From: Myxococcales bacterium | GTDB lineage: Bacteria > Myxococcota_A > Polyangia > Polyangiales > Polyangiaceae | Assembly (NCBI GenBank): GCA_013297655.1 | Contig: JAAFHV010000084.1 | Location: 1-33,135, forward strand | Reading direction: 5' to 3' | Length of the DNA: 33,135 nucleotides | Shown: one piece after another, positions 2,480 to 11,059 of the stretch | How the letters are laid out: every line of letters starts with the position of its first letter | Position numbering within the stretch: the stretch's first letter is position 1 | Translations under genes and position numbers: made by a program | Notes under the pieces: generated by a model | The model's input: the letters and a program-made list of their open reading frames with translations, nothing else | What the model was told of the DNA's origin: nothing | The model's database searches: none

Positions 2480-3031
2480 ATGCATCGTTTAGCGTTTTTC
2501 GTGGGTGCGCTCCTCGTCTTCCTTGCGAGTTGCGCGCCCACGTCCGAGACGACCCCACCACCAAGGACGACCATGACCATGACGACGACCGAGCAAAACA
2601 AGCGCGCGATTCGCAGGCTCTACGAGGCGGTGCTCGGCTCGAGCCGCTTCGAGGGCATCGGCGAGCTCGTCGCCGACGAGTACGAGGGCCCGCACGGGGC
2701 ACGCGGACCGCGCGCGTTCGTGATCACGATCGAAGAGCTTCGCGCGGCCTTTCCCGACCTTCGCTACACGATCGAAGACATCGTGGCGGAGGGCGACCGG
2801 GTCGTCGCGCGGTGGACCTGGAGCGGCACCCACGAGGGAAATTTTCGAGCGTTCGGGGCCACCCATGCGCGGGTGACGAACAAGGGAACCGTGATTCACC
2901 GAATGAGGGAAGGCAAAGTGGCGCAGACCTGGGTCGAGACGGATCGTCTGGGATTTCTCGAGCAGGTGGGCGCCGTGCCTTCAGGATTGGCGGGAGGACC
3001 GCCGGCGCCCGGCGTGAAGAAGCGGCCCTGA
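2480..3031 (+). CDS. SnoaL-like (NTF2-fold) ester-cyclase-type lipoprotein
   Basis: This is a 183-residue protein with a lipoprotein signal (about 1-17, lipobox LASC, Cys18) and a Thr/Pro-rich linker, followed by a SnoaL-like alpha+beta barrel from about residue 35. The family pattern is visible as a first helix (NKRAIRRLYEAVL), FPDLRYTIEDIVAEGDRVVARWTWSGTHEG and the late KVAQTWVETDRLGFLEQVG. Relatives include polyketide cyclases and many stress-linked proteins with no known activity. Lipidation would put it in the periplasm or on a membrane, which is unusual for polyketide cyclases, so a biosynthetic role is not implied. An internal ATG about 30 residues in could give a soluble form. No partner gene is adjacent. 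Confidence 0.75.
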   Translation: MHRLAFFVGALLVFLASCAPTSETTPPPRTTMTMTTTEQNKRAIRRLYEAVLGSSRFEGIGELVADEYEGPHGARGPRAFVITIEELRAAFPDLRYTIEDIVAEGDRVVARWTWSGTHEGNFRAFGATHARVTNKGTVIHRMREGKVAQTWVETDRLGFLEQVGAVPSGLAGGPPAPGVKKRP

Positions 3032-7837: not shown

Positions 7838-8257
7838 CTAAGGCGCGCCGTGACCAGGGGTGCGAATGGCCATCTCGGCGCGGAGCCCATCCTTTTTTGT
7901 CATACCGACCCCGAACCGGAATTGCCCCTTCGTGGTCGGCGAATCGGAGAAGGTGCCGTCGCCGCTCGTGCGTAGTCCGTCCTTCGCGATTCGGAGGAAA
8001 ACATGGCGCTTGACGACGATCGGGATCGGCGGCGCGCCGGTCGGCGCGGCCGCAAAATCGCCCTCGACCGTCACGAAGAGGGGAATCGTGTCGCCGGGGA
8101 AGAGCTCCACGATCACCGGCCGCTCCACGATGAGGCCGTTTGCACCTTCGAGCGCGTGGAGGTCGTTCGCACGCACGCGGAGCGGAGGCGCAGTGGCCGC
8201 GCATCCGAGGGTGCACGTCACGAGGGAAAGAACGAACGCGGCAGAGAGCAGTTTCAT
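7838..8257 (-). CDS. hypothetical lipoprotein under a BlaI-type operator
   Basis: This is a 139-residue protein with a lipoprotein signal MKLLSAAFVLSLVTCTLGC (Cys19). The start at 8257 is preferred over ATG 8269 because GGAG sits 6 bases before it. The rest looks beta-rich, with VERPVIVELFPGDTIPLFV and VKRHVFLRIAKDGLR, and has no cysteines or domain that I recognise. The near-palindrome TTACTA-N7-AGTAGTT (8269-8288) covers its leader and is the same site found before the blaI gene at 9763. The gene is therefore probably repressed by that BlaI homologue and released by the M56 peptidase encoded just upstream. Its function is unknown; an envelope role is likely from lipidation. Confidence 0.7.
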   Translation of the reverse strand: MKLLSAAFVLSLVTCTLGCAATAPPLRVRANDLHALEGANGLIVERPVIVELFPGDTIPLFVTVEGDFAAAPTGAPPIPIVVKRHVFLRIAKDGLRTSGDGTFSDSPTTKGQFRFGVGMTKKDGLRAEMAIRTPGHGAP

Positions 8258-8268
8258 CGGAGTCTCCA

Positions 8269-8288
8269 TTACTATGCACGTAGTAGTT
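8269..8288. promoter_or_regulatory. BlaI-type operator before lipoprotein gene
   Basis: TTACTA-N7-AGTAGTT, with an inner dyad TACTA-N6-TAGTA at 8270-8285. It shares all 13 fixed positions with the site at 9774-9793 and resembles the TACTA/TAGTA half-sites bound by BlaI/MecI repressors. It lies 11 bases before the chosen start codon. Confidence 0.65.
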
Positions 8289-8324
8289 CAGGAACGACGC
8301 AGGGTCCGCGAGGCGCGCCGGCGC

Positions 8325-9362
8325 TCACGGCAATACGAGAGAACGAAGGACGACGAGCGCCACGAGCGTCGCGCCGACCAGACCGGCCACGACCTGCGAG
8401 CGCGGCGCCGGCACCGGAGCTTCGAGGAGATCGTCGACACGAGCGCCGAGCGAGCCGTGACACGCGCCGAGGGCGAGCGCAGGCGGGCGCCCGCTCGCGT
8501 GGACGTGCTCCCTCACACGGACGAGGGCCGACGCGAGCGCATAGGGACACGCTCCGTCGGCGACCGCTCGCTCGTCGGCGGCGGCTTCGAGCGCATCACG
8601 GAGACGCGCCTCGGCGCGACGGACGAACGGGACGAACACGAACGCGGCGCACACGAGGCCGACGAGCGACGCTACGAAGATGTGCCCTTCGCGGACGTGC
8701 GCCACTTCGTGAGCGAGGGCGGCGTTGCGCTCCTCTTCCGTGAGCGCCTCCCAGGTCGACCTCGGAAACACCACGTGAGGCGAAAAGAAGCCTCCCGTGA
8801 ACGGCGTGCCCTCCACCGCGGCAGACACGACGAGCTTCACCGTGCGACCTCCGGCCGGCACGAACGTGACCGACGTGGCTCCCGCCTCTGCTTCCGCGAC
8901 GAGGAGCTGCGACGCGCGAACGGCGCGCGCGTGACACACGAGCGCGACGAGAGCGGCTACGGCCAGACAGCCGACGAGCACCGCCGGCGCGTGGGGATGC
9001 AGGTGCTTCACGAGCGCCGTCGCGACGACGCCCGATACCCCACGAGCGTCCGCCGTACCGCGCGCGACGTGGGTGACGACGACACGAACGATGACCCCGA
9101 GCGGCGTCATCCCGAGACCGACCTGGAACGAGCCGGGGTGTTCGCTCGCGGTCGCGAGGGCCTGGCCGCGGACCTCGGCCGGGAGACCGCGGACGGCAGA
9201 CCACACGAGGGCCACGAGCGGAAGCGCGGCGAGCAGCACGCCCACACGCGCGCCGACGATGCGACGCGAAGCAAACGGGCGCACCACCGCGACGACGACG
9301 AGCGCGAACACGAAGGCACCGATGCCACCGACGAGGTGCTCGAGCGCGTCGCCGACGTTCAT
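8325..9362 (-). CDS. M56 family (BlaR1/MecR1-like) membrane metallopeptidase without penicillin-binding sensor
   Basis: This 345-residue protein has hydrophobic segments near 10-27, 36-56, 85-98 and 126-143 and a final one at the C-terminus (about 327-345). The cytoplasmic zinc-protease motif HEVAH lies at 218-222, followed by a helix with HIFVASLVGLVC. In staphylococcal BlaR1 this protease inactivates BlaI once the external penicillin-binding domain senses a beta-lactam. Here the chain ends right after the last membrane helix, so that sensor is missing and the signal is unknown. The start overlaps the blaI stop by 4 bases (ATGA), showing translational coupling. The downstream lipoprotein carries the same operator and is probably a regulon member. 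Confidence 0.85.
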   Translation of the reverse strand: MNVGDALEHLVGGIGAFVFALVVVAVVRPFASRRIVGARVGVLLAALPLVALVWSAVRGLPAEVRGQALATASEHPGSFQVGLGMTPLGVIVRVVVTHVARGTADARGVSGVVATALVKHLHPHAPAVLVGCLAVAALVALVCHARAVRASQLLVAEAEAGATSVTFVPAGGRTVKLVVSAAVEGTPFTGGFFSPHVVFPRSTWEALTEEERNAALAHEVAHVREGHIFVASLVGLVCAAFVFVPFVRRAEARLRDALEAAADERAVADGACPYALASALVRVREHVHASGRPPALALGACHGSLGARVDDLLEAPVPAPRSQVVAGLVGATLVALVVLRSLVLP

Positions 9363-9763
9363 CGGGAGTCTTTCTTTTGGCGCAGTCGTTCGTCGATCTT
9401 GCCGCGGAGGGCGCGAAGGTCGTCGGCGGAGAGCGCCTCGTCGTCCAAAAGAGCGAGGAGCGGGCCGCGCGCGTCGTTGGGAAAGAGTGCCCGCTTCAAG
9501 CTGGCGACGAGCCCACGCGAGACGCCGGGCGCCTGCATTCCTGCTCGGTAAAGGTAGCGCCGCCCTTCCCGTTCGCGCGCGACGAGGCCCTTCTCGTGGA
9601 GACGCACGAGCACCGTCATCACCGTGGTGTACGCGAGCTCGTGGCCACCGTCTGCGTCCGCGAGGGCGGCTTGCACGTCTTGAACGGAGCGCGCGCTGTC
9701 GGCCTTCAGCAGCCCTAGGACGCGCCCTTCGAGAGGACCGAGGCTTCGTTCGTCCGGCGGCAT
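9359..9763 (-). CDS. blaI: BlaI/MecI/CopY family transcriptional repressor
   Basis: This is a 134-residue winged-helix repressor. The DNA-binding part (about 5-75) has the family sequence GPLEGRVLGLLK, SVQDVQAAL, YTTVMTVLVRLHEKGLV and REGRRYLYRA; the C-terminal half (about 80-130) gives the dimerisation and protease-sensitive helices. Such proteins bind TACA/TACTA-type dyads and are cut by a partner M56 peptidase, which here is encoded by the overlapping next gene. An operator lies 11 bases upstream of its start (9774-9793), so it most likely represses itself. The symbol marks the family, not a proven role in beta-lactam resistance; no beta-lactamase is seen in the window. Confidence 0.88.
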   Translation of the reverse strand: MPPDERSLGPLEGRVLGLLKADSARSVQDVQAALADADGGHELAYTTVMTVLVRLHEKGLVAREREGRRYLYRAGMQAPGVSRGLVASLKRALFPNDARGPLLALLDDEALSADDLRALRGKIDERLRQKKDSR

Positions 9764-9773
9764 GAGCAGAGAG

Positions 9774-9793
9774 TTACTACTACACGAGTAGTT
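9774..9793. promoter_or_regulatory. BlaI-type operator before blaI-M56 operon
   Basis: TTACTA-N7-AGTAGTT; a perfect inner dyad ACTACT-N5-AGTAGT spans 9776-9792. It matches the site at 8269-8288. It lies between the blaI start (9763) and the stop of the OmpA-domain gene (9804), so the operon promoter must be close to or inside the 3' end of that gene. Confidence 0.7.
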
Positions 9794-9803
9794 GTCAAGA
9801 CGC

Positions 9804-10934
9804 TCAGAGGCCTACCTTCGTGATGTGTATCTCGACGCGGCGGTTTTCGGGTGCGGCCCCCGCGACGGGGACTCGGCGTTCGTGCGCTCCGTGCGCGGCG
9901 ACGCGAACGCGTGTCTCCGCGACTCCGTGAGAGACGAGCACGTCACGGGCAGACTTGGCGCGCGCGGCGGAGAGGGCCAGGTTGCGAGCGTCGTCTCCCA
10001 CCGCGTCGGCGTGCCCCTCCACGAGCACCTCCGCGATCGTGGGTGTGTCGACCAAGAGCTTCGCGATCCTCTCGAGCACCTCACGCGCCTTCGGATCCAG
10101 CTTCGCGCTCCCGGTCGCGAAGAACACGAGCTCGTCGGTCGAGATGCGATCGCGCGTGACGACGATGCCAGCGCCCGCTTCGGGACATCCGCGGCGCGTG
10201 CCGGGCAGATCGGGGCATTCGTCGTGCGCGTCGTCGGTGCCGTCGTGGTCACGATCGGGCGGCGCGACCGGCACGGCCGACGCCGAGACCGACGGCACGT
10301 CTGGGGGCTTCGGAGGCGGCTCGCGACGACGGAGCGCACAAAGGCCGAGCCCGAGCGAGACGCTCACCACGAGCGCGGCGAGAGCGACGATCCTCGTGGA
10401 CGCGCGCTCGAGAAGCGCACTTTGGCCGGTCCGCGCGATCGTCGTCGCGGAGCCGGGCGCGGCGGATTCGTCCTTCTTCGACGCGATCTTCGCGAAGCGC
10501 GCGGTGGTGTGCACCGCGAGGCTCTTTGCGCCTTCCTTCCTTCGTGTCGCGCCCCAATTGGCGACCCGAATGGCATGTTCGTTCGGATCGTAAAACCACG
10601 AATCGGGCTCGTCCTTCGGTGGCATCGCGAACGCGGCTCGGAAGCGCGCGAACGCGGAGCCGGGCGTCGCGAGCTCGGTCTCGAGGAGGCGCAGGCGCCG
10701 TTCGAGCTCCGCCTCCGCCGCGCGCACCTCGACGGGATGACGCGTGCGGGCCTCCTCGAGCGTCATGTAGTCGGCGGCATGCCAGGTGACCATCGTAGGC
10801 ATCGCGCGCGGACCTTCCACGTCCGGCACGAGGAGACGGCCGCCCAAGAGATGCGCTTGGTTGAGATCGCCCGCGAGCTGCCAAATGACGACTCCGTCGA
10901 CCAGATTCGGGAGCCACGTGACCTCGGAGCTCAT
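9804..10934 (-). CDS. single-pass inner-membrane protein with C-terminal OmpA peptidoglycan-binding domain
   Basis: This is a 376-residue protein. An uncharacterised N-terminal region of about 180 residues has no signal peptide and should be cytoplasmic; a membrane helix lies at about 182-200. A Pro/Ser-rich linker and an acidic, possibly calcium-binding segment (DRDHDGTDDAHDECPD, 227-242) follow, then an OmpA-like domain (about 255-372) with VEGHADAVGDDARNLALSAAR. That domain binds diaminopimelate in peptidoglycan, so the protein ties an inner-membrane or cytoplasmic function to the wall, as MotB- or TssL-like proteins do. An upstream GTG at 10985 is possible but the ATG at 10934 starts the conserved-looking part. 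It precedes the blaI operon and diverges from the BtpA gene. Confidence 0.8.
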   Translation of the reverse strand: MSSEVTWLPNLVDGVVIWQLAGDLNQAHLLGGRLLVPDVEGPRAMPTMVTWHAADYMTLEEARTRHPVEVRAAEAELERRLRLLETELATPGSAFARFRAAFAMPPKDEPDSWFYDPNEHAIRVANWGATRRKEGAKSLAVHTTARFAKIASKKDESAAPGSATTIARTGQSALLERASTRIVALAALVVSVSLGLGLCALRRREPPPKPPDVPSVSASAVPVAPPDRDHDGTDDAHDECPDLPGTRRGCPEAGAGIVVTRDRISTDELVFFATGSAKLDPKAREVLERIAKLLVDTPTIAEVLVEGHADAVGDDARNLALSAARAKSARDVLVSHGVAETRVRVAAHGAHERRVPVAGAAPENRRVEIHITKVGL

Positions 10935-11059
10935 TGCACGCTGCGTCCCGCACCGAACATCGGAAACGAGCGTACCGCGCGACACCTCCGCGCGGGCGAC
11001 GAACGTGGACCCGCGGATTCTCGCGCCTTTGCCGAACGCCGTGCTTTACCCTGCGGCTC

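Follow-up and report, generated by a model that had tools for sequence, protein, structure and literature searches.

The 33,135-nt stretch of Myxococcales DNA analyzed here (the window) carries what is probably an autoregulated BlaI/M56 envelope-response switch, in which a single type of operator would govern both the transcription of blaI and the M56 peptidase gene and that of a small lipoprotein gene immediately downstream. The three genes are present, they share a palindromic operator at their two promoters, the arrangement is conserved in related genomes, and exact copies of the operator in those genomes are found almost exclusively at the module itself.

Genes and operators of the module

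The genes lie on the minus strand in the order blaI (9763–9359), M56 (9362–8325) and lipoprotein:

9359–9763, minus strand: blaI-type repressor, 134 aa (PF03965 Penicillinase_R, E=5e-22, 78.8 bits)
8325–9362, minus strand: M56 (BlaR1-type) membrane metallopeptidase, 345 aa, without the C-terminal penicillin-sensor domain (PF05569, E=2.5e-14)
7838–8257, minus strand: small lipoprotein of an unnamed family, 139 aa (lipobox LGC, Cys at residue 19)

The repressor, one of two BlaI-family proteins encoded in the source genome, passes the PF03965 gathering score (78.8 against 22.6 bits), and the peptidase passes PF05569 (53.6 against 31 bits). The start of the M56 gene overlaps the stop of blaI by ATGA (9359–9362), a 4-nt overlap also found in most of the relatives that bear the module. 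A preliminary description of this DNA had noted both the overlap and the lipoprotein nature of the downstream gene; the two domain matches and the lipobox cysteine bear it out. For the lipoprotein itself, a start at 8257 (MKLLSAAF..., preceded by GGAG) is more likely than one at the ATG of 8269.

The same description had drawn the operator as TTACTA-N7-AGTAGTT, and a pattern scan of the window recovers it exactly at 8269–8288 and 9774–9793. With up to three mismatches there are six overlapping matches, against 0.32 expected from shuffled sequence, and no shuffle reaches six. The placement of the sites before the blaI and lipoprotein genes, on the minus strand, is likewise correct. What does not stand is the register: both sites contain TAC-repeats, so that the 20-bp frame, an artefact of these repeats, sits 3 bp (one triplet) off. 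Judged by its symmetry, the true element is the 16-bp palindrome TACTAC-N4-GTAGTA:

9778–9793, no strand: operator 1, before blaI, TACTACACGAGTAGTT, one mismatch to TACTAC-N4-GTAGTA, the same place being kept in relatives
8270–8285, no strand: operator 2, before the lipoprotein gene, TACTATGCACGTAGTA, one mismatch to TACTAC-N4-GTAGTA, the same place being kept in relatives
9793–9798, minus strand: candidate −35 box TTGACA, read from sequence, directly upstream of operator 1

TTGAC occurs at the equivalent place before blaI in most relatives, and the blaI operators, 7–14 nt from the start codon, mostly follow it. An operator so placed would fill the spacer between the −35 and −10 boxes, and its closeness to the start codon would leave the blaI transcript with almost no leader. 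Further upstream, a gene for an OmpA-domain protein (9804–10985, minus strand) stops ∼5 nt short of the candidate −35 box; read-through from this gene into blaI is possible.

Conservation of the module among relatives

The order BlaI, M56, lipoprotein is kept in nine relatives (G038, G046, G018, G094, G087, G082, G051, G164 and G157) and, divided between two contigs, in G028. With at most one mismatch, the operator precedes both blaI and the lipoprotein gene in all of these genomes save G164, in which an exact operator precedes blaI and the letters ahead of the lipoprotein gene are N. One of the nine genomes with both operators, G157, belongs to a different family of the same order. The gene order extends to a distant member of another family of the phylum, G395, in which looser sites are found at both promoters: two TACTACACCAGTCGTA before blaI and TACTACATGTGTAGGA before the lipoprotein gene. 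The two TACTACACCAGTCGTA copies are identical and lie 70 bp apart (1981–1996 and 2051–2066 of the locus).

In G051 and G157 operator 2 falls inside the opening codons of the lipoprotein gene. At the two loci with this arrangement (L071, operator at 1835–1850; L077, operator at 2996–3011) the predicted proteins have odd N-termini, MHHHQQNYYN... and MDSIKKNYERS..., ahead of the signal peptide.

Distribution of the operator in whole genomes

The 9.9-Mb source assembly was scanned with mismatch patterns rather than a position matrix, and the reversed pattern served as control. As a palindrome, TACTA-N6-TAGTA occurs only twice in the assembly, once before the lipoprotein gene of the window and once on another contig (C368:39508), and this second site is also the single exact copy of TACTAC-N4-GTAGTA in the genome. 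Allowing one mismatch gives five sites, against six for the reversed pattern, so that one-mismatch sites carry no weight by themselves. That the sites in the window exceed chance is settled, at the level of sequence, by nine other genomes that conserve them at both promoters and not by mismatch counts in a single genome.

The ten relatives hold 14 exact copies of TACTAC-N4-GTAGTA, 13 of them in the module, at the promoter of either blaI or the lipoprotein gene; the reversed pattern yields four in total. A random scatter of the motif, which the preliminary description had named as grounds for rejecting the idea, is thus not what the genomes contain. The fourteenth exact site (G164:C292) sits inside a coding frame and was dismissed as a target. 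Two one-mismatch sites of the source genome were similarly set aside as regulon members: C155, which lies inside an AraC-type gene, and C357, which precedes a 428-aa lipoprotein and is not above background. The latter site (TACTACATACGTAGCA, C357:14223–14238, one mismatch) lies between a SpoU-type methylase gene and the lipoprotein gene, whose product is without a Pfam match; it could be a further target.

The exact palindrome on C368 is of a different kind. It lies 7 nt upstream of a gene whose product, a lipoprotein of 378 aa, belongs to the beta-lactamase family PF00144 (E=7e-34) and contains an SxxK motif. The gene has a TTGACC box upstream and a base composition that matches the window. 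The protein is closest to esterase/amide-hydrolase-like members of its family; it scores 19.7 bits with the class C beta-lactamase model (cut-off 415), and the solved structures closest to it are of class C-like serine hydrolases that are not proven beta-lactamases. From the operator match, the BlaI of the window probably blocks this gene too. PF00144 homologues in relatives of the family (32–38% identity) are all without the operator and were not counted as regulon members; this member of the regulon therefore rests on one genome. The preliminary description had predicted a three-gene regulon with a lipoprotein and not a beta-lactamase as its output. The link between repressor, peptidase and lipoprotein through one operator type holds, and is repeated in nine further genomes; the exclusion of a beta-lactamase does not hold as worded, given the exact site before a PF00144 gene.

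The second BlaI-family gene of the source genome (C514:75358–75770) is directly preceded by two AT-rich palindromes in tandem, TGCTAAAAATTTAGCA and TGCTAGAATTTTAGCA, separated by 25 bp. These are of a TGCTA..TAGCA type unlike the TACTAC sites, and no other clear site of this type was found in the source genome. The second BlaI, with palindromes of its own, thus appears to form a separate, self-contained circuit, which most likely leaves the TACTAC sites to the BlaI of the window.

No BlaR1-type sensor in the M56 protein

Hydropathy places the hydrophobic segments of the M56 protein at residues 9–27, 35–53, 125–143 and 324–342. These four segments, the zinc ligands and a re-entrant segment that follows HEVAH all match BlaR1: the zinc site, HEVAH at residue 218, comprises H218, E219, H222 and E259, which are invariant in 11 aligned sequences. 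The protein is not a sensor of the BlaR1/MecR1 kind, for it ends at residue 345, three residues past the last hydrophobic segment, with no SxxK domain after TM4; against NF000326 it scores 32 bits (cut-off 400). A scan of the contigs with a profile made from the M56 alignment was discarded, as it matched no more than the general HELAH region and the M56 proteins that it brought up were unrelated.

In BlaR1 the loop between TM2 and TM3 docks in the active site of the sensor and is displaced by the beta-lactam (PMC9834060; topology also PMC6925264). In the corresponding loop of the M56 protein a conserved GSFxxGxG leads into a run of alternating hydrophobic residues, and a similar motif is found near the end of the lipoprotein:

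8991–9203, minus strand: predicted extracytoplasmic loop TM2–TM3, residues ∼54–124, at the EL1/L2 position of BlaR1 (hydropathy and BlaR1/MecR1 topology; PMC9834060, PMC6925264)
9111–9134, minus strand: GSFQVGLG motif in the M56 loop, common to the lipoprotein C-terminus
7904–7927, minus strand: GQFRFGVG motif at the lipoprotein C-terminus, common to the M56 loop

The lipoprotein family

Homologues of the lipoprotein are found in 15 of the 183 genomes of the order, its own included. The protein has no Pfam or NCBIfam match, a profile search of PDB and Pfam gave nothing usable, and the fold predicted from the single sequence is unreliable (pLDDT 42), too poor for a structure search. Invariant columns of the family are C19, P47, G55, P59, D100 and G116, and the C-terminus takes the form PGSFxFGxG...VxVxI. 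Some homologues occur without BlaI or M56 nearby; on gene neighborhood, then, the family extends beyond the regulon. These BlaI-free homologues adjoin genes for an M16 peptidase, a CAP-domain protein, a pectinacetylesterase-like protein and a molybdopterin oxidoreductase, with no operator in the vicinity.

A motif common to the M56 loop and the lipoprotein

Comparison of the two families, profile against profile, gives one clear match, between GSFRFGxG of the lipoprotein and GSFQxGLG of the M56 loop. The ungapped profile score is 21.8, the next best is 9.8, and none of 1000 column shuffles reaches 21.8; hhalign of the two families gives P=0.003 with a probability of only 10%. With one-residue variants allowed, the motif occurs in the 11 aligned lipoprotein-paired M56 proteins of the order (9 of the 11 scanned separately); it is absent from 20 other M56 proteins located beside BlaI homologues in the family.

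Since the M56 protein is without the BlaR1 sensor, the lipoprotein can be proposed as its extracytoplasmic partner or as a feedback element, acting at the TM2–TM3 loop. On the shared motif we regard this as possible but doubtful. A more specific version, to which we give slightly less credence, is a split BlaR1: a sensor-less M56 protein would answer to a lipoprotein that is encoded separately and co-regulated with it, and the C-terminal hairpin of this lipoprotein would mimic the loop as docking partner or competitor, such that induction feeds back on signaling.

The competing explanation, for which we judge the chances to be about even, is that glycine-rich beta-hairpins of envelope proteins resemble one another by coincidence and that the lipoprotein is unrelated to M56 activity. 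The motif is 8–10 residues long, the hhalign probability is low, and the motif is missing from the M56 protein of G395; moreover the paired M56 proteins appear to be one group of relatives and so are not independent observations. Set against coincidence are the margin by which the match surpasses every other ungapped alignment of the profiles and every shuffle, its absence from the 20 unpaired M56 proteins, and its location in the very loop that BlaR1 uses for signaling. Loop and lipoprotein from the same genome are only marginally more alike than pairs drawn from different genomes (p ∼0.04–0.19, depending on window length). This weak excess, combined with the homologues found away from BlaI and M56, makes the similarity suggestive and not proof of contact.

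A model for regulation

By analogy with characterized BlaI systems, dimers of BlaI would bind TACTAC-N4-GTAGTA at two promoters: that of blaI–M56, where the palindrome lies between start codon and −35 box, and that of the lipoprotein gene downstream. Bound repressor would block transcription of blaI–M56 and of the lipoprotein gene and, in the source genome, very likely also that of the distant PF00144 lipoprotein gene. A signal from the envelope would switch on the M56 protease; cleavage of BlaI would then release repression, and repressor, protease and lipoprotein would rise together.

It is also conceivable, if rather unlikely, that the module is an ordinary regulon for resistance to beta-lactams or cell-wall damage, with the PF00144 lipoprotein as effector in trans and the small lipoprotein as an accessory envelope protein without a signaling role. 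The exact operator and TTGACC box before the PF00144 gene are as this would predict, and Mycobacterium tuberculosis provides a precedent in a sensor-less BlaR that controls blaC in trans (PMC5473688). However, relatives do not show the trans target, 13 of their 14 exact sites being at the module; the output that is conserved is the small lipoprotein, and the PF00144 protein resembles esterases and amide hydrolases more than class C beta-lactamases. A metal switch of the CopY or PetRP type, in which M56 (or BlaI) senses metal and the lipoprotein serves as metallochaperone, is improbable: PetRP is indeed a BlaI/M56 pair with a small regulon and proposed copper-dependent proteolysis (PMC7896320), and CopY (TIGR02698) is the top NCBIfam match of the repressor, but at 44.3 bits against a cut-off of 121.95, while the repressor has no cysteine and hence no CXC motif, and the lipoprotein family keeps no Cys (lipobox aside), His or Met as a metal site.

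Relationship to known systems

The envelope-response switch favored here resembles BlaI-BlaR1-BlaZ and MecI-MecR1 of Staphylococcus aureus and Bacillus licheniformis in that a BlaI-family repressor and an M56 protein are encoded together and autoregulated via a palindromic operator, and in the HExxH...E protease between TM3 and TM4. It differs in the missing penicillin-sensor domain, in the small lipoprotein as adjacent output and in its operator, TACTAC-N4-GTAGTA as opposed to the TACA/TGTA-centered sites of bla and mec. With BlaI-BlaR of M. tuberculosis (Rv1846c-Rv1845c), whose way of responding to beta-lactams is an open question (PMC5473688), it shares the sensor-less M56 protein and, probably, the control of a beta-lactamase-type gene in trans; no linked lipoprotein is described there, whereas the conserved target of the module is the small lipoprotein. 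PetR-PetP of cyanobacteria is likewise a BlaI/M56 pair with a very small regulon and an output other than a beta-lactamase, but it controls plastocyanin/cytochrome c6 in response to copper and has no such lipoprotein; no electron-carrier targets of this sort lie near the operator sites. BlaI_0696 and BlaI_1845 of Clostridium thermocellum also have small, stringent regulons that include BlaR1 and hypothetical proteins (PMC8457756), but with GTCTAT/GACTAT repeat operators and other linked genes.

The preliminary description had considered the arrangement undescribed. This must be narrowed, since BlaI/M56 pairs with other outputs (PMC7896320, PMC8457756) and a sensor-less BlaR (PMC5473688) have been published; the literature searched contains no description of this lipoprotein family, of the lipoprotein-coupled module or of the TACTAC operator, although most subscription papers lay outside its coverage and novelty is unproven.

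Many BlaI/M56 pairs have no penicillin sensor. A lipoprotein linked to such a pair through gene order, a common operator and a common loop motif is a testable candidate for what may replace the sensor, and the 16-bp operator provides a means of finding members of the regulon in whole genomes.
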